Assembly: GCA_030038215.1 (NCBI GenBank)
Contig: JASHPI010000047.1
Location: 1 to 39,226, forward strand
Direction of reading: 5' to 3'
Length of the DNA: 39,226 bases
Origin: Vulcanimicrobiota bacterium
GTDB taxonomy: Bacteria > Vulcanimicrobiota > Vulcanimicrobiia > Vulcanimicrobiales > Vulcanimicrobiaceae
The translations under genes and the position numbers were made by a program. Positions 3,939-38,306 of this stretch are shown here, one piece after another (the first letter of the stretch is position 1; each line of letters opens with the position of its first letter). The notes below the pieces were generated by a model. It ran no database searches. It was not told the DNA's origin and saw only the letters and a program-made list of their open reading frames with translations.

Positions 3939-4589
3939 ATGCGCTGTGCGATCGTCCGTGCCGGGACCTCGCTGGCAACGGCGCTTCTCACGGCCGCCGT
4001 CGCCGACGCTGGGACCGAGTTTGCCGAGAATCTCGGCTGGCTCGGCGGGAGCGTGCACGACGCTCAGCACGAAGCCGTCCTGCCGACCTTCCTTCTAGGC
4101 TTGGCCATCGGCGTCGCGCTGGCCATCTTCGTCGCCTTCGCGAGAATCGCTCCCCACGATCCGCTGCTTCGCTGCATGAGCGATTGGCGTGCTCGGATCA
4201 CGGATCTCGCGATTGCCTTACCTGGAAGCGCGGTCTGCGTTATTGCGATGGAAGGATACGAGACGCGCTTCGGAGGCCTTTCGCCGTTTGACCCGCAGTC
4301 GGTCGTTCTCTCGCACGGGGTGGCTCTTGTAATCGCCTTCGTGTTCGTGGCGACCGTCGCGCGCGGCGTCATAAGTGCTGCTCTCCGCCTCGCACGTCGC
4401 GCGGGCGAGTTTGCGGCCAGCGTACTCGTCGAGTTTCTCCATAAGATATCTCAGGCTCAGATCGCGCCGGGAGCAGTTCATACCTCCGCATTCATTCTCC
4501 ACGTTCTCCATTTACCACCCGAAATAGCCTTTGGAGCGTGCGGCATGCGCGCGCCCCCGCGTTCGATTCCCTCTTACTGCTTCATTTAG
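3939..4589 (+). CDS. Small polytopic membrane protein of unknown function
   Basis: A 216-residue protein with about four hydrophobic segments: near residues 8-24, 47-68 (FLLGLAIGVALAIFV), 85-103 and 123-150 (VVLSHGVALVIAFVFVATV). A charged stretch and a C-terminal tail without obvious membrane character follow. I do not recognise the family. The gene is plus-strand, divergent from the hydrolase, and ends 14 bp before the TonB-dependent receptor start, so the two are probably co-transcribed. That spacing suggests, but does not prove, a supporting role for the receptor. The start is the first ATG after the divergent promoter region; no strong ribosome binding site decides it. Confidence 0.62.
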   Translation: MRCAIVRAGTSLATALLTAAVADAGTEFAENLGWLGGSVHDAQHEAVLPTFLLGLAIGVALAIFVAFARIAPHDPLLRCMSDWRARITDLAIALPGSAVCVIAMEGYETRFGGLSPFDPQSVVLSHGVALVIAFVFVATVARGVISAALRLARRAGEFAASVLVEFLHKISQAQIAPGAVHTSAFILHVLHLPPEIAFGACGMRAPPRSIPSYCFI

Positions 4590-4591
4590 CC

Positions 4592-4597
4592 AGGGAG
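4592..4597 (+). promoter_or_regulatory. Ribosome binding site that fixes the TonB receptor start
   Basis: AGGGAG sits six bases before the ATG at 4604. An ATG-like start further upstream (4538) would overlap the preceding gene and put 22 non-signal residues before the signal peptide, so 4604 is preferred. Confidence 0.75.
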
Positions 4598-4603
4598 TCT
4601 GAC

Positions 4604-7318
4604 ATGCGAAATTTCACGCGCTATCTTTGCGCTTTCATTAGCATTTCGGTGTGCACTGGTGCGCTCGCGCACGGCGCCGAACTCACGGTCGGTGCCATCA
4701 TCGGCACGGTGCAAACCACGGCCGGCGCACCGGTTCCCGACGCTCGCGTCTTGGCGGTCTCACCCTCGGGCCGGTATACGGCGACGAGCGGCCCGAAAGG
4801 AGACTTCCTCATTCTGGGAGTCGTCCCGGACACGTACACCATTACCGCGCAGGCAACGGGATACTTGGCGGCGACCGATGTTGAAATCGTCTTGCCCGGC
4901 GAGCGTCAGGAGGTCTCCTTCAAGCTTCGCCCGCAAATTAAAGAGATCGCGCACGTAGAGGCTAAGGGCGAAGCCTTCACCGTCGGCAGCACCAGCGACG
5001 TGTTCACGGTCACGGGCGAGCAAGCCCGTGCGACGTCGCCGGTCGTAAACTCCTCCGGGTTATCACAATTCAGCCAAGGCTCGGTACAGGGCTCAATCGC
5101 GAACGTCCCCGGCGTTCAGATGGATTCTTTCGCAAACGTAATCGTGCGGGGCAACAAAGTGCAAGACACCGTCTACGATTATGACTCGGTTCCCATTCCG
5201 CAAGGACTGATCGCGGAGCCGGGCGGCAACATCGTCGGGGCCCAGCTCGGCACGACCGGCGTCGGGGCCACGACCCTCACGCTCGCCGGTTATGAAGACA
5301 ACAGTCAAAACTCGATCGGCGGCATCGTCAACCAGGTGCCGGTCATCGGCACGTACCCCGCTCAAGGAACCTTCGAGGCAGGCATCGGTGTCGGCGCGCA
5401 GATGAACGAGGTGAAGTTCAGCGAACAATGGGCGACGCCGGACCTACGCTGGCGCTACTCGCTGGCGGCAACCTCCGGCCAACAGTACTTCCCCTATGGC
5501 GACGGCACGACGTTTTATCCCGCTGAGATCGGCACCTACGGCCTCGCGTTGCAGACGCGCGCGGCGTCGGCGTGGTCGGGCAACGTGCACTTCCAGCCCA
5601 ACCAGCAGAACGATTTCTCGGCCACATTTCTCACCGGCAACGCGGTCTACACGCAATACGACACGCCGTACCAAGGTTTACTCTGGTCGACATTCAACGG
5701 CAGCACTACCTCCTTCCCGGGCGCGCCGGCGAATGAGAACCAGCAGGTCACCACGCCCTCAATCGCGCGCGGTACGTACTTCGTCGGTAAGCTACAATGG
5801 CTGCACAACTTTGCGCACTCGCTCGTGCGCTTTTACACGTTCGAATCGCAAATCGGAGCGCAAGCCAACGGACCGTTCTGGGACGACCTCTCTTTTCCCG
5901 ATGGGATAATTTCGCTGGCTTCTCAGCAGTGGCAACGCGAATATGGTACCGGCTTCGACTGGGACGATCAGGCCGGCGACAAGAACGACCTGCGTGCCGG
6001 CTTCCAGTATTCGGTAACGATGAGCTACCTCGATCAGGTCGTGCCCACCGCAGACGAGTTCATCTTCTCCAACCCTCGGCTCAACCAGAACCTCTTCTAT
6101 CTAGGGGACACCTGGTCGATCGACGATCACCTCTCGGTAACCGGCACCTTGCGTTACATCACTCAAAACGTCCTAACCAGTGACGCTTTCTTTTATAGCA
6201 ACGGCGCGATCGACCCGCATCTCGGAGTAGCCTACACGTTCGACGATAACAATGGATTGCGCGCGACGTTCGATCATAATTCGGTAGCGCCGCTTCCGCT
6301 CGAGGTGCAGCGCGACGACTCGACGTCGCCCACTCCGCCGATCGCTCTGTCGCCCGAGACCGCGAACGACTACTCCTTCTCCTACGAGCACGGAGGGCCC
6401 ACCCAGATCCGGCTGACGTACTACCTGCAATTCAATAAGAACGTAATCGACGTCTTGCCCTATAACTACCGCGACATCACCCCGGAGAACCCGAGTGCAG
6501 TCGGCGTGCCGACCAACGCAGGACTTCTGCAATCGCGCGGCGTGGAGCTCTTTGCCCAGCACGGCGGACTTACGCTCGACGCAATGTACAATCACACGCT
6601 CACCTCGAGCGTTACGCAGTTCGCGTACAACGATCTTAACCCGGCGGCGATTCTGGCAGGGCATCTCTATCCGAACGGATACCTCCCCAACTTCACCGCA
6701 ACGGCAGCGTACGAGTTCGATTTCTTCCGTCGCCGGTTCCGCGTTACCCCGTTCCTGTCGTACGAAAGCGGCTATCCCTACGGCAACGGAAAGATGGTCT
6801 GGATCCAAAATCCCAAGACCGGTCAAGCTGAGTTGGTTCCGAACGACAACTACGTCAACCCCGGCTACAACTACTACTTCTTGAAGAACCCCGCGCTGCC
6901 GTTCAACGCGGTTACCAATCCGTACATCGGAAACCTTGGAACGAACGAAGGCGACGATCCGAACACGTTGCGAACGATGCCGCAAACGTTGGCCTCACTG
7001 CACCTCGAGTACGATCTGAACCCACGCTTGACCGCGATCGTCGACGTCGTGAATCTTTTTGCGACCGACAGCCCGACGCAGTACCAAGGCAATCCGTACC
7101 TGATCGGGCCGCCCGGCTATACCGGCGGCGACGTCTACTACGAAAAAGCCTACGGCTCGCAATACTGCAAGGGCTGTCTCTACACGCTTGGTAACGGCAT
7201 CCCGACCAATAACGGCACCACCCAGGTCGCCCCTTGGGACTACACGACGGCCGGATACGTCCCCGAAGGCTACCCGATGGGCCGCACGGCGCAGATTCGT
7301 TTGCGGTATCGCCTATGA
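4604..7318 (+). CDS. TonB-dependent outer-membrane receptor with N-terminal regulatory-like beta domain
   Basis: About 904 residues. A signal peptide (MRNFTRYLCAFISISVCTG) is cleaved near ALAHGA. Residues about 25-115 form a carboxypeptidase-regulatory-like beta sandwich (IIGTVQTTAGAPVPDARV, then GDFLILGVVPDTYTITAQ), common at the start of SusC-like and other large TonB-dependent receptors. A plug domain follows (SIANVPGVQMDSFANVIVRG), then a long beta-barrel rich in aromatic strands. The last residues (IRLRYRL) fit a final barrel strand, although the end is Leu rather than the usual Phe. The protein should take up a bulky nutrient or chelate across the outer membrane using TonB energy. The ligand is unknown; no TonB, ExbB or SusD gene is adjacent. 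It shows that the organism has an outer membrane. Confidence 0.9.
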   Translation: MRNFTRYLCAFISISVCTGALAHGAELTVGAIIGTVQTTAGAPVPDARVLAVSPSGRYTATSGPKGDFLILGVVPDTYTITAQATGYLAATDVEIVLPGERQEVSFKLRPQIKEIAHVEAKGEAFTVGSTSDVFTVTGEQARATSPVVNSSGLSQFSQGSVQGSIANVPGVQMDSFANVIVRGNKVQDTVYDYDSVPIPQGLIAEPGGNIVGAQLGTTGVGATTLTLAGYEDNSQNSIGGIVNQVPVIGTYPAQGTFEAGIGVGAQMNEVKFSEQWATPDLRWRYSLAATSGQQYFPYGDGTTFYPAEIGTYGLALQTRAASAWSGNVHFQPNQQNDFSATFLTGNAVYTQYDTPYQGLLWSTFNGSTTSFPGAPANENQQVTTPSIARGTYFVGKLQWLHNFAHSLVRFYTFESQIGAQANGPFWDDLSFPDGIISLASQQWQREYGTGFDWDDQAGDKNDLRAGFQYSVTMSYLDQVVPTADEFIFSNPRLNQNLFYLGDTWSIDDHLSVTGTLRYITQNVLTSDAFFYSNGAIDPHLGVAYTFDDNNGLRATFDHNSVAPLPLEVQRDDSTSPTPPIALSPETANDYSFSYEHGGPTQIRLTYYLQFNKNVIDVLPYNYRDITPENPSAVGVPTNAGLLQSRGVELFAQHGGLTLDAMYNHTLTSSVTQFAYNDLNPAAILAGHLYPNGYLPNFTATAAYEFDFFRRRFRVTPFLSYESGYPYGNGKMVWIQNPKTGQAELVPNDNYVNPGYNYYFLKNPALPFNAVTNPYIGNLGTNEGDDPNTLRTMPQTLASLHLEYDLNPRLTAIVDVVNLFATDSPTQYQGNPYLIGPPGYTGGDVYYEKAYGSQYCKGCLYTLGNGIPTNNGTTQVAPWDYTTAGYVPEGYPMGRTAQIRLRYRL

Positions 7319-31546: not shown

Positions 31547-32875
31547 TCACGCAAGCGGCATTCGAATTACGCACGCCGCTCCGCCGCCCTGAAGGTTGCA
31601 CAGCCGGATGGCGCCTCGTGCGCGCGCAACAACCTTTGCAGCGATCGCCAATCCCAATCCCGTTCCCGTAACGCCTTCGGAGGCAGTGCCCCGATAGAAG
31701 CGGTCGAATGCCGATTTGAGGTCTTCCTTCGAGAAGCCCGGACCGCGATCGCACACGATAATCTCGCACTGGCCGTCGGCGCGACCGACGCTGACGGTCA
31801 CCGGACCATCGCCGCCATACTTCACTGCATTGTCGGTGAGCGCAACGAGCGCTTCACGAAACTCTGTATCGGCGGCATGGACCGTCAGCGGCGAAGAGCT
31901 CAGCACGACGTGAAGGCGTCGTTGCTCGCCAGGTGAGAACGACAGCGGTAGTTCCCGGACGACATCGTTGACGTCGAACGAACTCTCTTGTAGCGGCGCT
32001 ACGTGCTCGAGGCGCGCAAGCGTGATCAGCTCGTCGATCAAAGTCTTCATTCGGCGACTCTGGCTCAGCATCTTCGCTACCTGCTCCGGGGCTGCTTCGC
32101 AAGGGGTGCGGGTGGCCATCGAGCTGAGATAGCCGATGATGACCGTAAGCGGCGTGCGAAGTTGATGCCCGGCGTCGGCAACGAATTGCCGCATCTCGGC
32201 ACTCGCCTGCGAGCGCTCCTCGAGAGCGCGAGTGATCTGCCGAACGGCCCGGTTGTAGGCCCGCGCGAGCTCACCGACTTCGCTGGTGTCGTTGGTGGAG
32301 ACGCTGGCCGGCGTAAAGTCACCCTCGCCGAAACGGTTCAGTGCCGCTGTCGTACGCAAGAGCGGGTCCAGCGAGTTCGCGGCGACGACGATCGCTATGC
32401 GCCAGGAAGCGGCAATGACGACGATCGCGAGCACCAGCATCGCCAGGAGGTAGTATTCAACGGATCGTTCGTAAAACGACGGGGCAACGAAAACGGTCGT
32501 GCGGGTTCCATCGTGCGCCACGTCGATGGGGCGAATCTTCTCCATGAGCATCCGGACGACGACGTTTTGACCGGGCCAAGCATGCCGAGGTCCATGGCGC
32601 GGTGGGAATCCGACCTCGGTGTGCGTCAAGACGGGCAGCGGCGCGAGCCGCTGTGCGAGGTACGCGTCGAAAGCATGGACGTTTCCATGCCGCGAGCGGA
32701 ATGCCGCCGCTAACGCGGGAATCTGCCGGGCCGCCGATGACATGGCTTCGCGCCCTTGGTAGGCAAGCATCTCGCCGGTCACGGCCGCGATGAGCACGGC
32801 CAGGCACAGCACGACGAGTGCGCCGGTCATGATATACCAGGTGATCAGACGGTTACGAAGCGATGCGACGCGCAT
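31547..32875 (-). CDS. Membrane sensor histidine kinase (HAMP, HisKA, HATPase)
   Basis: 442 residues from the ATG at 32875, which overlaps the response-regulator stop region by a few bases. The N-terminal span is ITWYIMTGALVVLCLAVLIAAV, followed by an extracytoplasmic sensor loop of about 110 residues and a second span YLLAMLVLAIVVIAASW. Then come a HAMP linker (LNRFGEGDFTPASVSTNDTSEVGELARAYN), the phospho-acceptor His237 in GHQLRTPLTV, and an ATPase domain with N-box DNAVKYGG, DRGPGF and GTGLGLAIA. This is a complete class I kinase. Longer starts, to 33019, overlap the regulator gene and lack a signal segment. The ligand is unknown. Confidence 0.95.
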   Translation of the reverse strand: MRVASLRNRLITWYIMTGALVVLCLAVLIAAVTGEMLAYQGREAMSSAARQIPALAAAFRSRHGNVHAFDAYLAQRLAPLPVLTHTEVGFPPRHGPRHAWPGQNVVVRMLMEKIRPIDVAHDGTRTTVFVAPSFYERSVEYYLLAMLVLAIVVIAASWRIAIVVAANSLDPLLRTTAALNRFGEGDFTPASVSTNDTSEVGELARAYNRAVRQITRALEERSQASAEMRQFVADAGHQLRTPLTVIIGYLSSMATRTPCEAAPEQVAKMLSQSRRMKTLIDELITLARLEHVAPLQESSFDVNDVVRELPLSFSPGEQRRLHVVLSSSPLTVHAADTEFREALVALTDNAVKYGGDGPVTVSVGRADGQCEIIVCDRGPGFSKEDLKSAFDRFYRGTASEGVTGTGLGLAIAAKVVARARGAIRLCNLQGGGAACVIRMPLA

Positions 32876-32880
32876 GCGCG

Positions 32881-33564
32881 CTAGGCGCGCAGGGTGTAGC
32901 CGGCGCCGCGAATGGTAACGATGAGCTGTTCGCTTTGCGCGCTGGGGTTGAGCTTTGCTCGCAAGTACGAAATGTACGTTTCCACGCAGTTTGGTGAGAC
33001 TTCGGAGTTGATGCCCCATACGAGATCGATCAACTCTTCCTTGCTAAAAACGCGCCGTGGTCTACGCATAAACGTTTCCAGAAGTGCAAATTCACGCCCG
33101 GTCAAAGCCACCTGGAGGCGGCCGCGCCAAACGATGTGTCGCTCCCGGTCCATCTGAAGATCGCCGTCCGTAAGCAACTGCGGCTCGTCCAGCTGAGGCC
33201 GGCGGAGTGCCGAACGGATTCGCGCGATCAGCTCGGGCGTTTCGAACGGCTTAGCCACGTACTGATCGGCCCCGCGCTCGAGACCGAGCACTTTGTCGCC
33301 CGTTTCACCCTTTGCGCTCAGGATGAATATCGGCGCCTGCGTCAGTGCCCGAAAGCGCGGAAGAATGCTGATGCCATCGATCTTGGGCATCATAACGTCG
33401 AGCAGAATCAACGAGGGCTCCCATCCGCGAATCGCTTCGAGCCCGGCTGGGCCATCGCGCGCCGCGCGTACTTCGAACCCTGCCGCCTCGAGCTCCGAGG
33501 CAAGCAAGCACCTAATATCTTCCTCATCGTCGATCACGGCGACGCGCGGACGTCTGGGGTCCAT
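32881..33564 (-). CDS. OmpR/PhoB-family response regulator
   Basis: 227 residues. The receiver domain has the acidic pocket VIDDEED, phospho-acceptor Asp56 in LILLDVMMPKIDG, and the conserved Lys in VAKPFE. The C-terminal winged helix (about 130-225) includes VALTGREFALLETFMRRPRRVFSKEELI, VETYISYLRAKL and TIRGAGYTLRA, which are standard for OmpR-type DNA-binding domains. It is the first gene of a three-gene unit with the kinase and the Spy-like domain, with overlapping ends. Regulated genes are not evident from sequence; the repeats near 30.9-31.1 kb are candidate targets. Confidence 0.96.
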   Translation of the reverse strand: MDPRRPRVAVIDDEEDIRCLLASELEAAGFEVRAARDGPAGLEAIRGWEPSLILLDVMMPKIDGISILPRFRALTQAPIFILSAKGETGDKVLGLERGADQYVAKPFETPELIARIRSALRRPQLDEPQLLTDGDLQMDRERHIVWRGRLQVALTGREFALLETFMRRPRRVFSKEELIDLVWGINSEVSPNCVETYISYLRAKLNPSAQSEQLIVTIRGAGYTLRA

Positions 33565-33852
33565 GTGTATATGCTAGGCAGTCTCCGCTGAGATGAACCT
33601 TGGAGTCTTTTCGGGGCCAAAATGAAAGCCCCGTCAGCAGCTTCAATCCGTGACGACGGCCCTTCACTCTTCTCGGGATGTTGGACTCGTGAAGGACTCG
33701 CTCAAAGCCTCGAACCTGACCGAGACCATAGGTAGCTGCCGTGGTGCCTTTGAAACCATTGTCCGTCGGCACGAGCGCGCCAGGATACCCACTCAACACT
33801 GTAACGAAACACCGTCGTTTGGCTCACGCGATCGTGGGTACGATGCGCGCTC
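33565..33852. other. Intergenic stretch with hairpin and trace of tRNA-Asn 3' end
   Basis: No convincing gene. A 6-bp GC hairpin sits at 33612-33617/33628-33633. At 33676-33689 there is a 14-base exact match to the T-arm/acceptor end of the tRNA-Asn at 38.1 kb, in the same orientation. The promoter for the response regulator should be here, but no clear -35/-10 pair was seen. Confidence 0.55.
33676..33689 (-). repeat. Possible third, degenerate tRNA-Asn 3'-end copy
   Basis: Fourteen bases identical to 38100-38113 (tRNA-Asn) and to 35643-35656 (second copy), in the same orientation. The flanks have diverged, although a GC hairpin with AAAAG beside it lies 43 bp further along, as in the other copies. 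Alone this would be weak; its place in the same accessory region makes it worth recording. Confidence 0.35.
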
Positions 33853-34053
33853 ATGGATCCGAGCAGCATTCGGCGCGTACTCGACCAGAGCGGCAGGGAG
33901 GTTGGCGTCCCACGCAAGGGGCGCGTAAGCGCTTGCGCGCTGACGAGCTGCTCGGGCGTATGCATTGAGGTCCGGTGGGCAGACGGCATGGTCACGCGCC
34001 CCTGTACGTCCACGATGCGCGACCTCGGAGACGGCGTTGTGCAGATCATGTAA
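33853..34053 (+). CDS. Small cysteine-containing hypothetical protein
   Basis: 66 residues. Most codons end in G or C, as in the real genes here, although the flanking DNA is not gene-like. The protein has four cysteines (28, 33, 37, 51; pattern C-x4-C-x3-C-x13-C), a central VRWADGMVTRPC and an end MRDLGDGVVQI. The cysteines could bind a metal, or be plain. No signal peptide or membrane span. No clear ribosome binding site precedes the ATG. I do not recognise the family. It precedes the first copy of the 131-bp repeat. A competing minus-strand frame (33702-34112) is less gene-like. Confidence 0.45.
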   Translation: MDPSSIRRVLDQSGREVGVPRKGRVSACALTSCSGVCIEVRWADGMVTRPCTSTMRDLGDGVVQIM

Positions 34054-34093
34054 TGCTGCGTGAGAATCTGAACGCAGCGCGTGCTCTGCGATG

Positions 34094-34224
34094 AGAAAGG
34101 GGTCGTCCTCACTGCAACGGGAGAGCTAAGTCGACCCCCGCTCAGGCCGCGATTAGGAGCGTCGAGAACCTGAGCCAGCGCCTCTTCGTTTGAATCAACG
34201 CGCGCCCTTGAGACCTAAGTCCCG
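34094..34224. repeat. 131-bp repeat, copy 1 (structured)
   Basis: Aligns without gaps to 36244-36374, roughly 88 percent identical. Two possible stems: 34099-34105 with 34132-34138 (7 bp), and 34140-34146 with 34169-34175 (7 bp). It ends about 115 bp before the start of the lipoprotein gene at 34340. It may be a leader RNA, a promoter-carrying element or a non-coding RNA; orientation is not determined. Confidence 0.8.
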
Positions 34225-34339
34225 GAACGAAATGGGGCTCGCCCAGCGCGGCGGTTTTAGCGAAGAGCCGTGTGGAGGCGGGCTCGTTGCCCTAGCGGGT
34301 GGAATCGCTGTAAGGCCGGGTTCTGGTCGGAGCCTAGAT

Positions 34340-34801
34340 ATGACGATTAGTTCGTGCCTGCACTCGAATCCGATGCGCTTCGCCGCCCTCGGCGCTGCCA
34401 TGCTGTTCGCCGGGTGCAGCGGCACTAGCAACGTCGCCAGCGCGCTGGCGACACATGCACCGATCGGCGAGATGCCTCCACAGCAGGTTGTCATCGCAAA
34501 CACATCAGATGAAGCGATAAGCCCTCTCGTGCATGCCGCTCCTTGCTGGATAATTGATCCGCCGTTTCCCCAGGTCCCAGCCGGCAAGGATAGTCAGCCG
34601 GTGAAGCTAGACGCTCAGTGCGCCGATTCTGAAATGTCCGTTGACTACGATGGCAGTGGCGACTACTGCACTCTCGACGTGCGCTACCTTCACATCGGTC
34701 AAGGCGGAGCCTATACGTACGCCGTGGAACAAGGATTCGCCACCAAATGCACGGCGTCGACGACCGCCAGCGGCGCACGCTTCACCTATGCGCTAAAATA
34801 G
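34340..34801 (+). CDS. Small lipoprotein of unknown function
   Basis: 153 residues from the ATG at 34340, with GGAG at 34329-34332. A lipoprotein signal ends in the lipobox MLFAGC, so the mature protein begins at Cys and should be membrane anchored. The mature part has several cysteines (in HAAPCWIID, DAQCADSE, DYCTLDV, FATKCTAS) and an immunoglobulin-like beta pattern at its end (GGAYTYAVEQG). I do not recognise the family. A copy of its last 44 or so codons is found at 37534-37668. It is preceded by copy 1 of the 131-bp repeat. A further in-frame TTG at 34190 would begin inside that repeat and is unlikely. Confidence 0.7.
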   Translation: MTISSCLHSNPMRFAALGAAMLFAGCSGTSNVASALATHAPIGEMPPQQVVIANTSDEAISPLVHAAPCWIIDPPFPQVPAGKDSQPVKLDAQCADSEMSVDYDGSGDYCTLDVRYLHIGQGGAYTYAVEQGFATKCTASTTASGARFTYALK

Positions 34802-34887
34802 CGCATCAGAGGAGCCGTGTTATCCTTAACCTCGCCGCAAATTCCACTGGTGAACTACCAGCGGCGCGAACTCGGGCTAATCGAACA

Positions 34888-35112
34888 GTGAGAACGCTAG
34901 CGTTCGTGGCCATTATCATATTCTTCATAGCTGCTTCTATAGCTAACTACTTTGCATACGAACAGGCCATAAACCGGAGCCTGGGCGATGCGCTTTTCTA
35001 TTACCGAATGCAGCGCAGTACTGCGGCGACCGACGTCGCCTGGATGCGCGAAGCAATCATCGCTTTAATTGCAGGTGTCGCGTGGTTTCTAGCGCGAGTT
35101 AAGCCGACCTAG
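34888..35112 (+). CDS. Possible small two-span membrane protein
   Basis: 74 residues from a GTG at 34888. Two hydrophobic stretches (LAFVAIIIFFIAASIANYFAY and AIIALIAGVAWFL) flank a short polar loop (YRMQRSTAATDVAWMRE). Codon third positions are less GC-rich than in neighbouring genes, as would be expected for acquired DNA. There is no strong ribosome binding site. It starts 86 bp after the lipoprotein stop and may be on the same transcript. The family is not recognised. Confidence 0.42.
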   Translation: MRTLAFVAIIIFFIAASIANYFAYEQAINRSLGDALFYYRMQRSTAATDVAWMREAIIALIAGVAWFLARVKPT

Positions 35113-35377
35113 ACGAATCCAGCGGCCTTGACTCCGCCCGAATGTAGCTGCAAGAAACCGAGGGGTGGCCGTGGGAGAGCCCCTCGTCCAAACCCTAGCC
35201 GCCCTGATGAGTGCCTCGGGACTTGGGTCCTCTTGACGGTGACTTTCGACTAGGGATAAAGACTCCAGGCGGGACTCACCCGAACTTCGACGGCCATCTT
35301 ATTATTAGTAATGCCCCTGCGCGTATAGAGCGCAGAGAAGTTTCGCATTCACGAAAAAGGTACGAGGCCGCAAGTCG
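35113..35377. other. Non-coding stretch with a GC-rich hairpin
   Basis: No gene is visible. A perfect 7-bp stem is formed by 35159-35165 and 35180-35186 (CGAGGGG/CCCCTCG, 14-base loop), about 45 bp after the small membrane ORF. It lacks a following T-run, so a terminator is only possible. Confidence 0.5.
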
Positions 35378-35488
35378 ATGACCAATAAAGAGCCTTGGCA
35401 ATTGCACAACTACCTGTGGCTCGCGATCGTATGCATAGGCGCTGGGTTTGGCCCGATAGTCTTAGCCGTCTTGCTATTCTTGCACTGA
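35378..35488 (+). CDS. Possible 36-residue single-span membrane peptide
   Basis: An ATG at 35378 opens a 36-codon frame with a polar N-terminus (MTNKEPWQLHNY) and one long hydrophobic segment (LWLAIVCIGAGFGPIVLAVL) to the end. Such small membrane peptides are often missed by gene callers. Ribosome binding is weak (AAGG and GAGG upstream at imperfect distance). No family is recognised; it could be chance. Confidence 0.32.
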   Translation: MTNKEPWQLHNYLWLAIVCIGAGFGPIVLAVLLFLH

Positions 35489-35585
35489 ACGGCATCGCCC
35501 ATCAAACCCCGATGCAAACGCGCAGCGTTCCAGCGACGGCGCCACCCGAAGCTGTCGCTTCCGAGCGCCCGCGGCTAGGCGAGGG

Positions 35586-35666
35586 TAGCCGGCTAAAGAG
35601 AAACCCCCGAAAAATGCCTTTTTCAGGAGTTTCGACTGCTCCGGATGTTGGACTCGACCCAACGAC
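35586..35666 (-). repeat. Partial copy of tRNA-Asn 3' end plus terminator (att-like)
   Basis: About 85 percent identical to 38041-38123, in the same orientation, with 20 identical bases at 35638-35657. On the minus strand it holds the T-arm and acceptor 3' strand of tRNA-Asn (T-stem intact, one change in the T-loop) followed by the terminator hairpin. The rest of the tRNA is absent, so it is not a functional tRNA. This is the shape of a site left by tRNA-targeted integration or by duplication. Confidence 0.75.
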
Positions 35667-35785
35667 TTGACGCTGGATTTGACTTTGGCCTCGCGCTTGC
35701 CGCGGCGATCACCCAAGATCCGGCGCACTCGCCGAAGCTCGACGCTATCATCGAGAGCGCGAGAGAGAGACTCCGCGAGTATTGA
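35645..35785 (+). CDS. Possible 46-residue ORF beginning inside the tRNA-derived repeat
   Basis: The ATG lies within the tRNA-like fragment, and the frame continues into gene-like, GC3-rich codons (LDAGFDFGLALAAAITQDPAHSPKLDAII) to a TGA at 35783-35785. It may be the remainder of a gene whose 5' end was replaced by the att-like sequence. No ribosome binding site or family recognised. The 120 bp after it hold no other feature. Confidence 0.28.
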   Translation: MLDSTQRLDAGFDFGLALAAAITQDPAHSPKLDAIIESARERLREY

Positions 35786-35906
35786 AAGGACCACGAACGG
35801 GAGCAGGCGCGGGAAAAGCAGCTCGCGTCAGTATGAGATCCTGTCGTTGACGCCCTAGGTCCCCGTTCGGAGCTTCGCTTCGGGGCCGCGTTCAGTCGCG
35901 GCGTCT

Positions 35907-36206
35907 TTAGCGCTTCTTCGCGGCTCGATCCAAGCCGGCGCGCAAGTCCTCGGCATTCATGACCGGAGTGATCTGCACGCTAGCATCCAACTCGGCAAAG
36001 AGCGGCTCGCATATCACCGGGATATCTGACGGGTCCCTCAAGTCGAAGAAAAGCATCGCCGCACGCTTACCGCCTATAGGCGCAAAGTACGCAGCCTCCG
36101 GCTTTAGAGTTTCGATCGTGGTTTGAAGCACTCTTGCGAGCCTGCCGTCCTTGACAGCGGCGTTCGAGGTTTCGACCGGAAGCGTCAGCGTTAAAAGTGT
36201 GCGCAC
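35907..36206 (-). CDS. Small conserved hypothetical protein
   Basis: 99 residues from a GTG, with GAGGAGG ending seven bases upstream, a strong start. The sequence begins MRTLLTLTLPVETSNAAVKDG and ends TPVMNAEDLRAGLDRA, with a middle KPEAAYFAPIGGKRAAMLFFDLRDPSDI. I believe this is a widespread small alpha/beta (ferredoxin-like) family with no assigned role; that is recollection of the pattern and not a checked match. It lies within the region bounded by the tRNA-Asn gene and its partial copy, and diverges from copy 2 of the 131-bp repeat. Confidence 0.75.
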   Translation of the reverse strand: MRTLLTLTLPVETSNAAVKDGRLARVLQTTIETLKPEAAYFAPIGGKRAAMLFFDLRDPSDIPVICEPLFAELDASVQITPVMNAEDLRAGLDRAAKKR

Positions 36207-36243
36207 TCGTATACCTCCTCTACAGCACGAACATCGGTCTACA

Positions 36244-36374
36244 AGAAAGGGGTCGTCCTCGCTGCAACGGGAAAGCCAGGTCGGCCCCTGCTCAGCCCGC
36301 GATTAGGAGCGTCGAGAGCCTGAGCCAGCGCCTCTTCGTTCGGGTCACCGCGCGCCCTTGAGACCAAAGTCCCA
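36244..36374. repeat. 131-bp repeat, copy 2 (structured)
   Basis: Second copy of 34094-34224 at a constant offset of 2150 bases. The first stem (36249-36255/36282-36288) is kept, one A-U pair becoming a G-U pair; the second stem (36290-36295/36320-36325) keeps six pairs. It ends 140 bp before the lipoprotein start at 36515. Confidence 0.8.
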
Positions 36375-36514
36375 GAAGAACAGCGGGACGCATCGGGCGC
36401 CGCATTCAAGTCGCGGTGCTCGTGCGTTGGAAAGCGCGCCCGAAACGGGGATCGCTTGCAGATCCATCGAAAATTTGCGCTGTCCTATGCGTTTTCTCAG
36501 GAGGGAATTCGTTC

Positions 36515-37114
36515 ATGCGACGAGACATTACGATCGGCTGCGCAATCGCAGCCAGCACACTGTTCATCGCAGCCTGCAGCTCCAGTGGCATTCCGTCGAC
36601 GAACGGAGTGGCTGCGCTCTTTGCGCAGTCCCGCGGCGTCAGTCCGGCCGCCACGAACGTTCTAAAGAATGGGTGCTTCTCATCCGGTAAGCTCGCCCCC
36701 TGGAAGGAGGTCGGCACGAAGCGCGGCAAGGCTGTTATTAGCACGAGGGAAGTCTGGGATTGTATCCACTCAGCCTTCATGGGAACGACCGAACCGCCGG
36801 CGGTCGACGGACTGTTCGGCATCGAACAGAGCGCGAAGATTCCCGCCAAGGCGAAGCTTACGTGGTGGTACTATGGCGATTCCGACGATGAGGCCAAGTA
36901 CGCCAGTCAGCAAGTTGACCTGATGTCGGATGGCAAGGTCGTCGATACCTGTTTCAAGGAACTGGTTAAGACCAAGAAGTGGACCCAGGGCACATGCGAT
37001 CTCAGCAAGTACGCCGGCGATACGTATGACATCGTGCTTGGCGTCGACGACAACGGCTACGATAAGACCTACGTCTACTGGTACATTGACGATGTCATAC
37101 TGACGTCGGGTTAA
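36515..37114 (+). CDS. Lipoprotein with a jelly-roll-like (carbohydrate-binding type) domain
   Basis: 199 residues from the ATG at 36515, preceded by AGGAGGG (36499-36505). A lipoprotein signal ends at FIAAC. The mature domain begins VLKNGCFSSGKLAPWKEVG and ends YVYWYIDDVILTSG. This is the N-G-x-F-x-x-G-x-x-x-W ... I-D-D-V pattern common to jelly-roll domains that cap or bind carbohydrates in secreted bacterial proteins. Between them are aromatic strands (LTWWYYGDSDDE) and a Cys pair (DTCFKELV, GTCDLSKY) that may form a disulfide. It probably acts on the cell surface or in the periplasm. A longer frame from 36416 lacks a signal peptide at its start. The ligand is unknown. Confidence 0.75.
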   Translation: MRRDITIGCAIAASTLFIAACSSSGIPSTNGVAALFAQSRGVSPAATNVLKNGCFSSGKLAPWKEVGTKRGKAVISTREVWDCIHSAFMGTTEPPAVDGLFGIEQSAKIPAKAKLTWWYYGDSDDEAKYASQQVDLMSDGKVVDTCFKELVKTKKWTQGTCDLSKYAGDTYDIVLGVDDNGYDKTYVYWYIDDVILTSG

Positions 37115-37533
37115 GAGGATACGTGAAGCAACGCGCCGCGAAGGTGGCGCCGTTTCGACGTGCCTCCTCTGCGCCCGCCACGCCACATCGGAGGATAGGA
37201 GCTAGAGCCGCCAAAATGCCGCTCCTCTCAAGGTCCCGGGATCCAATACGTTATACGATCGGCGCCGATTTCAACAATCAAGCCAACCTTGAAACTTCAT
37301 TCCTCCACCCAACTTGCCGTTCAGCTCCATCTACTAGGCACCAGGACGCGGGTCTTTCGCGTGCCTGCTCGACGCGCGAGGCTAGATATATATCGTGACA
37401 TCGTTTACGTCGATGCGCTAAGCACTCGCCCGAACGTTTGCATGGGACGCCGCGTTAAGTCGCGGCCCCGGCGAGAGCCAGGCGCGCTCAAGAGCGAGTT
37501 ATGCGAGAGGTGGGAAGGGATCTCCAACGTTAA
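37115..37533. other. Non-coding stretch
   Basis: About 420 bp with only short frames of non-gene-like composition. No hairpin with a T-run, RNA gene or repeat was recognised. Composition is slightly AT-richer than the genome, with a TATATATA stretch near 37385-37397. Confidence 0.5.
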
Positions 37534-37668
37534 GGAGAGCAGAACTGCATCCTCGACGTGATGTCCAATGGGGGTCCGTTTATCTGGAACGTAGGACAAG
37601 GATCCGCCACCAAATGCACGGTGTCCAAAACCGCCAACGGCGAACTCTTCACCTTCGCGCTAAAGTAG
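37534..37668 (+). pseudogene. 3' fragment of a second copy of the small lipoprotein gene
   Basis: The frame reads NCILDVMSNGG..., then GSATKCTVSKTANGELFTFALK and stop, matching the last 40 or so residues of the lipoprotein at 34340-34801 (YCTLDV..., FATKCTASTTASGARFTYALK). A TAA lies in frame just upstream (37531-37533), and no signal peptide or body precedes it. It is a decayed or truncated paralogue; DNA similarity is strongest from about 37593 to 37665. Confidence 0.72.
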
Positions 37669-38055
37669 GGGATCGTAGGAACTCCAACCCGGCGACTGGG
37701 CTCGGCTGCTCGCGAGGCTCGCGCTCTACGCGACGATCGCGGCGAGCTGTTCCCTCCGCAGATCCGGCGCGGCCTGCGAGCAGTGCAGCCGTGAGGGTGC
37801 AGCCCCATGCGTGCCTCGCCGTCTTCAAGCCATTACCCGCTAAACACCACGAGGCCGTTCGGTGACTCCCATCCCCGGCAATTCTGGAACTTGAACGCGC
37901 TGCGCTCGATGTACGACGAGCCGCCGCCACCGGCGCCTCCGCCACCCGTCGACGAGCCAGCCGGCGAGCTTCGCATAACTCTCGGCCGCAGCGCGGTACT
38001 CACCGCCGCTTCGCGCAAGCGTCAACGGCTGAGTGACCCATAGCCAGCTAGAGCG
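37669..38055. other. Mostly non-coding stretch with a possible proline-rich ORF
   Basis: A plus-strand frame ending at 38043 has a proline-rich end (from 37909, MYDEPPPPAPPPPVDEPAGELR). There is no ribosome binding site and it overlaps no known family, so I leave it unassigned. No RNA gene or repeat was seen here apart from the tRNA terminator at the right edge. Confidence 0.4.
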
Positions 38056-38089
38056 AAACCCCCGAAAAAAGGGGCTTTTCAGGGGTTTT
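38056..38089 (-). terminator. Rho-independent-type terminator of tRNA-Asn
   Basis: On the minus strand the sequence directly after the tRNA reads AAACCCC...GGGGTTT with an inner CCCC-T-rich-GGGG possibility, followed by TTTCG. Its copy at 35.6 kb keeps the potential to pair. Confidence 0.7.
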
Positions 38090-38092
38090 GAT

Positions 38093-38168
38093 TGGCTCCG
38101 GATGTTGGACTCGAACCAACGACCCGCTGATTAACAGTCAGCTGCTCTACCAACTGAGCTAATCCGGA
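38093..38168 (-). tRNA. tRNA-Asn (anticodon GTT)
   Basis: The acceptor stem TCCGGAT pairs with ATCCGGA. The D-arm contains AGCTCAGTTGGTAGAGC. The anticodon arm GCTGA-CTGTTAA-TCAGC places GTT at the anticodon. The T-arm is GTTGG-TTCGAGT-CCAAC. The discriminator is G and CCA is encoded. All arms pair fully, so the gene is intact. Part of its 3' end is duplicated at 35.6 kb. Confidence 0.97.
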
Positions 38169-38306
38169 AAGTCGCCTCCACTTATCGACCTTTTCAGCCT
38201 TTCCCTCCGCACCGAACAAAACCAGACTAGTCTTCGCCCTGTAACACGTTAGGCTTTTCTGAGAACGAGAGGCGGCGCGTGCGAGGCATCAAAGGGGAGT
38301 CCGGGC

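Follow-up and report, generated by a model that had tools for sequence, protein, structure and literature searches.

Serial insertion at a tRNA-Asn gene as the probable origin of two small recombinase-free elements in a Vulcanimicrobiota genome

Two small units of accessory DNA lie one behind the other downstream of a tRNA-Asn gene in the 39,226-nt stretch of a Vulcanimicrobiota metagenome-assembled genome (MAG) that we analysed (the window). The whole is best explained by serial insertion at this gene, the window holding two related CIME-like elements; we put the probability of this reading at roughly 0.8. In this poorly known phylum, a single tRNA gene acts as an entry port for accessory genes across a family.

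Copies of the tRNA-Asn 3′ end in the window

The intact tRNA-Asn proposed at 38093-38168 by an earlier reading of the sequence alone (the sequence-only reading) was recovered by both ARAGORN and Rfam (Table 1). The gene lies on the minus strand, so downstream means falling coordinates. The partial copy reported at 35586-35666 in the same orientation is real and longer than first described: 38007-38123 aligns with 35556-35666 at 77% identity (E 2e-18). Within the tRNA, this fragment 1 is identical at 28 of 29 nucleotides (tRNA positions 46-74), and its score is 53, whereas none of 1000 dinucleotide shuffles scored above 31, the highest value reached. A hairpin terminator is present in both the intact copy and fragment 1. 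The 14-base trace noted at 33676-33689 extends to 33672-33689 with 17 of 18 nucleotides matching; it is weak, scoring 31 against 29 for the best shuffle, with 0 of 1000 shuffles as good. Both fragments lie downstream of the tRNA in its own orientation, and the outer one is more decayed than the inner. The match of fragment 1 to the tRNA starts only at position 46 and does not reach back to the anticodon loop.

These sites delimit two units of 2.4 kb (unit 1) and 2.0 kb (unit 2), both with lipoprotein-type genes. Unit 1 has the intact tRNA on one side and, on the other, its 3′ end repeated in the same sense; for unit 2 such an outer border is given by the 18-nt trace only. The 199-aa lipoprotein-like gene of unit 1 has relatives in 34 of the 61 genomes searched and gave sub-threshold domain matches only. 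Beyond its paralogue, the 153-aa gene of unit 2 was found in its own genome only (61 searched).

Table 1. Features of the tRNA-Asn locus (window coordinates)
Feature	Position	Strand	Basis or remark
Histidine kinase, left flank outside island	31547..33019	-	PF02518, PF00512, PF00672
Response regulator, left flank outside island	32881..33564	-	PF00072 + PF00486; 98% in G016
Hairpin beside response-regulator gene, last stretch common with G016	33618..33649		Homology and folding
Fragment 2, trace of tRNA-Asn positions 55-72 (18 nt), outer boundary	33672..33689	-	17/18 identical
Unit 2, outer, no integrase	33690..35555		Between fragment 1 and trace
Repeat D1, unit-2 copy	34094..34253	+	Pairs with 36244-36402
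153-aa lipoprotein-like gene (unit 2)	34340..34801	+	Paralogue G000:C221, 53% aa
Small membrane-type ORF, weak gene call	34888..35112	+	Inside listed ORF 34747-35112; start chosen by eye
Fragment 1, tRNA-Asn 3′ end, terminator and ~30 nt; putative displaced att site	35556..35666	-	77% over 117 alignment columns
Unit 1, inner, tRNA-proximal, no integrase	35667..38040		From intact tRNA to fragment 1, recombinase-free
99-aa ORF (unit 1)	35907..36206	-	No family match
Repeat D1, unit-1 copy, upstream of lipoprotein gene	36244..36402	+	84% to 34094-34253
199-aa lipoprotein-like gene (unit 1)	36515..37114	+	Paralogue G000:C114, 79% aa
Remnant, ~45 C-terminal codons of unit-2 lipoprotein gene	37543..37671	+	tblastn 56% to residues 109-153; DNA repeat 81%
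Terminator directly 3′ of tRNA-Asn	38041..38092	-	Hairpin -19.3 kcal/mol; unlike that of G016
Intact tRNA-Asn (GTT), target gene	38093..38168	-	ARAGORN and Rfam

In the closest relative, G016, both flanks are about 90% (90-92%) identical to those of the window, and the homology stops at 33649 on the left and 38075 on the right. Neither unit is present at the two edges in G016, where the array is unassembled between two unjoined contigs. Together with the family-wide pattern described below, these flank ends support the proposal of an insertion at the 3′ end of the tRNA.

tRNA-Asn is an integration hot spot in the family

Across 72 loci from 60 genomes of the Eremiobacterota family, we observed 44 tRNA-Asn fragments in the sense of the tRNA and none in the opposite sense, with 34 of the 44 starting at tRNA positions 30-33. 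Fragments were present in 25 of the 60 genomes, a figure that is not a prevalence since loci were partly picked for fragments. The counts exclude the loci outside the family (L077, L078, L079 and L082) and L080, which has no tRNA-Asn; where a second copy is full-length (G081, G114 and G117), it was treated as a site and not as a fragment. A scan of 36 loci at a lower threshold (32) gave nine downstream matches on the same strand and none on the opposite strand, against one (G043) and none upstream. Among the nine, the match in G015 is confined to the anticodon stem (17 nt).

All 35 alignments between genomes that reached the tRNA from its 5′ side ended between -3 and +55 nt from its 3′ end; in 32 of these, downstream sequence extended beyond 27 nt in both partners. 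Integrase genes are found no more than about 100 nt from the tRNA or a copy of it, in convergent orientation, in G003, G032, G034, G081, G083 and G095, and integrase remnants stand beside tRNA-Asn in G017 and G115. Because homology from the 5′ side stops at the tRNA 3′ end, the fragments are all tRNA-sense and integrases adjoin the tRNA, we conclude that tRNA-Asn is an integration hot spot in this family.

The sequence-only reading had called for a comparison of this locus in related genomes. The family provides occupied and empty sites (G030 and G093 versus G090; G113 versus G105), which represent only two gene sets, both compared between genera; no clean empty site was found for the window species, the two contigs of G016 being unjoined. 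The same tRNA-Asn carries different cassettes in related genomes. Arm-like repeats occur at both ends of three of seven integrase-bearing segments (27 nt in G097, 14 nt in G003 and 13 nt in G065; 0 of 200 shuffles each), and the other four have no repeats common to both ends. Two integrase-less segments also have end repeats, of 12 nt in G114 (0 of 200 shuffles) and 11 nt in G081 (1 of 200). The three integrase-bearing segments with end repeats speak for serial insertion; the four without them and the two integrase-less segments speak against it.

The window units carry no recombinase

Neither Pfam models nor ORF matches revealed a tyrosine or serine recombinase in the window units, and tblastn with the family integrases found no integrase gene or remnant in the island. 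The units have no integrase of their own of the kind expected of an element that inserts at a tRNA 3′ end. The tblastn matches at E <= 0.001 both fell on the tRNA-Asn itself, in antisense reading, and an integrase pseudogene in the island was rejected. The 85%-complete MAG contains, among the matches listed, one tyrosine recombinase, which is XerC/D-like, and no serine recombinase was found in it. This sole tyrosine recombinase (G000:C172) has XerC and XerD as its best models and scores below their cut-offs (262 against 335 for XerC); we did not accept it as a tRNA-Asn integrase. These results agree with the suggestion that the elements are non-autonomous or decayed and show no visible integrase. 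The sequence-only reading also proposed a search for the att-like core and for a recombinase acting in trans; fragments of this kind come back at other loci of the family, and the MAG yielded only the XerC/D-like gene among the matches listed.

The two units are related

Units 1 and 2 have three collinear blocks in common, in the same order and with the att/terminator end included. One is repeat D1, 84% identical overall and 90% in an ungapped part of 134 nt. Another is the pair 34723-34813 / 37590-37680 (81% identical), which represents the end of the unit-2 lipoprotein gene and its truncated remnant in unit 1. The sequence-only reading overlooked both pairs. D1 was not found elsewhere in its own genome or in 37 other genomes, and a 35-base pattern from it gave 0 exact matches in viral contigs. 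We rejected D1 as a structured RNA, there being no Rfam match at this position and unremarkable folding (z of 0.68 and -1.39 on the plus strand, -0.36 and 0.52 on the minus strand). The 200 nt 5′ of the two fragments show no resemblance to each other.

Since the two units are related, we kept tandem duplication as a possible origin of the second. The locus would then have received a single insertion at tRNA-Asn, followed by unequal exchange inside the chromosome; the units would afterwards have diverged, one lipoprotein gene decaying and another entering unit 1. The shared block order and the confinement of D1 to this locus favour such an event, but the part that can be aligned between the units is small, about 370 of roughly 2000-2400 nt. 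The units also diverge by 16-23%, compared with 8-11% for the flanks between the window genome (G000) and G016, yet no unit stands at the G016 edges, a weak argument as G016 is incomplete. On balance we consider duplication unlikely. Of the origins first proposed, one or two tandem elements or a tandem duplication, serial insertion has gained support and duplication persists for the second unit.

Integrase-less cassettes are common at tRNA-Asn

Most segments resolved at tRNA-Asn lack a recombinase. Of 25 segments of at least 0.7 kb between sites, 18 have no integrase, as have all 12 of 0.75-3.1 kb and 10 of the 14 tRNA-proximal ones; Pfam tyrosine and serine recombinase models confirmed the absence. 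Six segments below 200 nt were left out, as was unit 2 of the window, whose trace does not reach the score threshold of 40. The boundary sites are weak, scoring 40-51, in two of the 12 small segments (G106, 1.27 kb; G076, 1.72 kb).

In the sister genus g41, integrase-less cassettes with unrelated cargo have in common an arm of about 107 nt beside a 45-nt tRNA core. One such cassette is common to two species at 93-97%, versus 85% for the DNA 5′ of the tRNA (G065 versus G105). This arm-plus-core arrangement suggests possible movement in trans.

These observations raise the question, made testable by the family genomes, of whether small cargo-only islands are what is left of decayed elements or are cassettes mobilised in trans. 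That the window units are true non-autonomous cassettes served by a trans-acting integrase, not remnants that lost their own, would fit the integrase-less segments, the arm common to unrelated cargo and the close match between G065 and G105. However, the g41 arm was not found in the window, the window units have no arm common to each other, and ordinary elements losing their integrase end would keep the same distal arm. Nor did we find an integrase common to the arm-bearing genomes, whose candidates are mostly 25-40% identical to one another, Xer-like ones apart. We therefore regard this origin of the window units as doubtful.

A broader proposal, equally tentative and in our judgement improbable, is a family-wide tRNA-Asn cassette system that resembles integrons and uses a tRNA-derived site. 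In such a system, each cassette would hold one to a few genes and no integrase, and would end in a short arm joined to the half of tRNA-Asn that runs from anticodon loop to 3′ end. Integrases specific for tRNA-Asn would move the cassettes in trans and stack them behind the tRNA, and the window would represent a decayed array of two such cassettes. The g41 arm offers a concrete site for testing cassette movement.

Finally, the idea that the fragments are chance similarities in a merely gene-poor locus draws on the short outer trace (score 31, compared with 29 for the best shuffle) and was rejected as extremely improbable on the shuffles and the strand bias, since the inner copy scores far above the shuffles, fragments recur across the family in one orientation, and sequence similarity between species ends where the tRNA ends.

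Discussion

Our model of serial insertion proposes that tRNA-Asn is the chromosomal attachment site for diverse tyrosine-integrase elements in the Eremiobacterota family. An incoming circle would bear a copy of the 3′ part of the tRNA, beginning at about the anticodon loop. By recombining with the gene on the chromosome it would rebuild an intact tRNA with the 3′ end and terminator of the element, and the old 3′ end would be pushed to the far side of the inserted DNA. Repeated insertions would stack the elements, the newest adjoining the tRNA. The window would then hold two elements of related origin, now reduced to cargo, unit 2 being the outer and older and unit 1 the inner and newer. The units would have arrived by site-specific recombination and in this order, and their integrase may have been lost or supplied in trans. 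Counting against this explanation are the lack of an empty site for the window species, the short outer trace, the start of the fragment 1 match at position 46, the blocks common to both units, which also fit duplication, the XerC/D-like nature of the only integrase found in the 85%-complete MAG, and the small number of occupied/empty gene sets, both between genera.

The window is another example of a known arrangement, represented by CIMEs, additive islands and the Dehalococcoides ssrA islands. CIMEs are att-flanked, have no integration or transfer genes, and accumulate in tandem at the 3′ end of a target gene through site-specific recombination (PMC5704250). The window units likewise keep att-type repeats and have no integration or transfer genes, the latter as judged from few ORFs only. 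They differ in their very small size and in carrying only one to three ordinary genes, and no conjugative element was seen; their putative att copies are diverged. The tandem Dehalococcoides ssrA islands are marked by RNA-gene 3′-end repeats, and 16 have and 15 lack an integration module (PMC3146451); there the target is ssrA and the integrase a serine enzyme, whereas here tRNA-Asn and tyrosine integrases are involved.

In Methylophilaceae (PMC10872708), Actinomarinales (PMC7771536) and Alteromonas (PMC4119200), tRNA genes host additive flexible genomic islands. Their cassettes have tRNA 3′-end repeats and vary widely in size, those of Methylophilaceae spanning 330 bp to 42 kb (PMC10872708), and cassette transfer between genera is reported in Actinomarinales (PMC7771536). 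The occupation of one tRNA by different cassettes in related genomes of the Eremiobacterota family is similar, but the phylum and the tRNA differ, and the arm beside the core in g41 has no counterpart in the passages of PMC10872708, PMC7771536 and PMC4119200 considered here. Tycheposons are tRNA-bordered cargo elements of 4-200 kb characterised by a tyrosine recombinase (PMC10872708). The window units resemble them in their tRNA border and cargo but, at 2.0-2.4 kb and with no recombinase, fall outside that definition.

Integron gene cassettes are mentioned in PMC4119200. For the g41 cassettes the likeness to integrons is an analogy only. Integrons are arrays of small gene units with the site at one end and the recombinase elsewhere; the site in g41, in contrast, consists of an arm and one half of a tRNA gene.

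The tRNA-Asn locus holds two related units

Outward from the 3' end of tRNA-Asn, the locus, which lies in a MAG of 2.35 Mb (241 contigs, 85% complete), runs through a terminator, unit 1, an inner copy of the tRNA 3' end, unit 2, a tRNA trace, a hairpin and a response-regulator/histidine-kinase pair. Units 1 and 2 are the inner and outer segments between these sites. The partial tRNA copy proposed by the sequence-only reading is real, with a score of 53 where the best of 1000 shuffles reached 31, and the weaker outer trace is present as well (score 31, best shuffle 29). GC content is lower in the island (0.594) than across the window (0.627).

Units 1 and 2 are related, sharing three blocks in identical order. 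Unit 2 retains a 153-aa lipoprotein gene, of which unit 1 has only about the last 45 codons; a 199-aa lipoprotein gene lies between this remnant and D1, the repeat present once per unit. Each gene has a paralogue on another contig of its own genome (153-aa, contig C221, 53% amino-acid identity; 199-aa, contig C114, 79%). Among the 61 genomes searched, relatives of the 199-aa protein occur in 34, and those of the 153-aa protein in its own genome only. Judging from these paralogues and relatives, the cargo looks like the lineage's own type of accessory gene. Pieces of C221 also occur in unit 1 in reversed order, with 86-94% identity (window 37260-37351 and 37596-37666; L146 4301-4438 and 1238-1308), and two short stretches within 37260-37351 are 93-94% identical to C221.

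Coordinates of features in the window and in genomes of the sister genus g41
Feature	Position	Strand	Identity or remark
tRNA-Asn	38093-38168	minus	
Diverged inner copy of tRNA 3' end, with own terminator	35556-35666		
Trace of tRNA-Asn	33672-33689		18 nt
Response-regulator/histidine-kinase pair			beyond hairpin, outermost
Block D1 (unit 2 / unit 1)	34094-34253 / 36244-36402		84%
Block, lipoprotein gene end	34723-34813 / 37590-37680		81%
Block, terminator-plus-att end	35556-35666 / 38007-38123		77%
g41 arm	L151:5311-5422 (G105)		also L152, L153, L148/L205, L163, L203
Multicopper-oxidase cassette	L203:2495-4946; joined L148 and L205, 27925-30396		

tRNA-Asn is an insertion site across the family

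The closest relative, G016, is 90-92% identical to the left flank until the match ends at 33649; on the right flank (90%) the match ends at 38075, 18 nt beyond the tRNA. Beyond these breakpoints its sequence (about 500 and 235 nt, on two separate contigs) differs from the window. Its terminator 3' of tRNA-Asn is a different hairpin, as expected if every incoming element carries its own terminator. One 35-nt stretch beside the response-regulator side of G016 (L107 389-423) matches window 35450-35484, close to the end of unit 2 that faces the tRNA, at 86%.

Among 99 genomes retrieved for the family, tRNA-Asn was matched in 80 with an E value of at most 1e-9. The 72 loci examined in 60 genomes contain 44 fragments that score at least 40 and lie in the tRNA sense, the window's inner copy counted, and none in the opposite sense; 34 of the 44 start at tRNA positions 30-33, the query itself starting at 30. 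A comparison of relatives, as called for by the sequence-only reading, supports insertion at the tRNA 3' end: all 35 between-species alignments that reach the tRNA from its 5' side terminate at -3 to +55 nt relative to that end, three of them involving a locus with only 27 nt past the tRNA. Two gene sets gave occupied/empty pairs. One gene lies 594 nt (G030) and 491 nt (G093) behind tRNA-Asn; in G090 two fragments are present and it follows the second at a distance of 774 nt (85-94% amino-acid identity). Another follows the tRNA at 177 nt in G113 and a fragment at 92 nt in G105 (89%).

Short copies of the tRNA 3' end in tandem, spaced by 65-158 nt, were seen in G070, G076, G090, G106 and G097 (L174, L180, L185, L152 and joined L158-L156), and second, full-length or nearly full-length copies 2.7-7.8 kb behind the first in G117, G081 and G114 (L150, L155, L159).

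Most segments at tRNA-Asn have no integrase

In G003 (two), G032, G034, G081, G083 and G095, tyrosine integrases lie convergent to the tRNA or one of its copies, at a distance of about 100 nt or less; remnants adjoin either in G017 and G115, and others lie 0.6-2.6 kb off in G030, G008 and G097. Their pairwise identity is about 29-74% where BLAST alignment is good. The integrase frame of G035 (L059, oriented 4580-5974) enters tRNA-Asn antisense, so that the attachment site supplies its last codons.

Among 25 segments of at least 0.7 kb between consecutive sites, seven, all of at least 4.4 kb, carry an integrase and 18 do not; it is absent from all 12 segments of 0.75-3.1 kb and from 10 of the 14 tRNA-proximal ones. 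Pfam models of tyrosine and serine recombinases, run over the 13 genomes holding the 18 segments, gave no match inside these segments. The window units, already noted as having no visible integrase, fit this class. Repeats at both ends, the expectation for attP arms, occur in three of the seven integrase-bearing segments and in two integrase-less ones. Ten small-segment cargo proteins were scanned: a SnoaL-like protein (G121), a copper-amine-oxidase N-domain protein (G020), a multicopper oxidase (G065), PadR and GNAT proteins (G117), a PAS-GGDEF-EAL protein (G036), one with a sub-threshold match (G108) and three without a match.

Serial site-specific integration at tRNA-Asn best explains the locus, with two related units that are now cargo-only. 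The second unit may have come from a second integration or from a duplication, and the cargo-only state may reflect decay or mobilisation in trans. The array is of the same kind as the accretion of cis-mobilizable elements (PMC5704250), the Dehalococcoides ssrA islands, 16 with an integration module and 15 with none (PMC3146451), and the additive islands that collect cassettes at tRNA genes (PMC10872708, PMC4119200, PMC7771536). Titles and abstract openings on integrase and tRNA (among the matches listed) or on mobile genetic elements mention no such islands for Eremiobacterota.

A shared arm and an integrase-less cassette in genus g41

Seven g41 sites, from five species and with unrelated cargo, resemble each other (73-93%) over the approximately 105 nt immediately 5' of the fragment. 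This arm, about 107 nt long with one to three TTGACCCC repeats, occupies the far end of integrase-less cassettes, adjoining the tRNA-Asn core, which eight arm copies abut at position 32. With one 112-nt copy as query, it was found in five of 99 genomes, all g41 (five of its seven genomes). The window does not contain it. A search for a helper integrase common to the arm-bearing genomes found none.

G065 and G105 share a multicopper-oxidase cassette, from core to arm, at 93-94% identity. The DNA 5' of tRNA-Asn is 85% identical between them and the cassette's left neighbours differ, which points to horizontal transfer of a unit that lacks an integrase. A partial, 2.0-kb version occurs in G096 (C90; L163, L204) at 97%.
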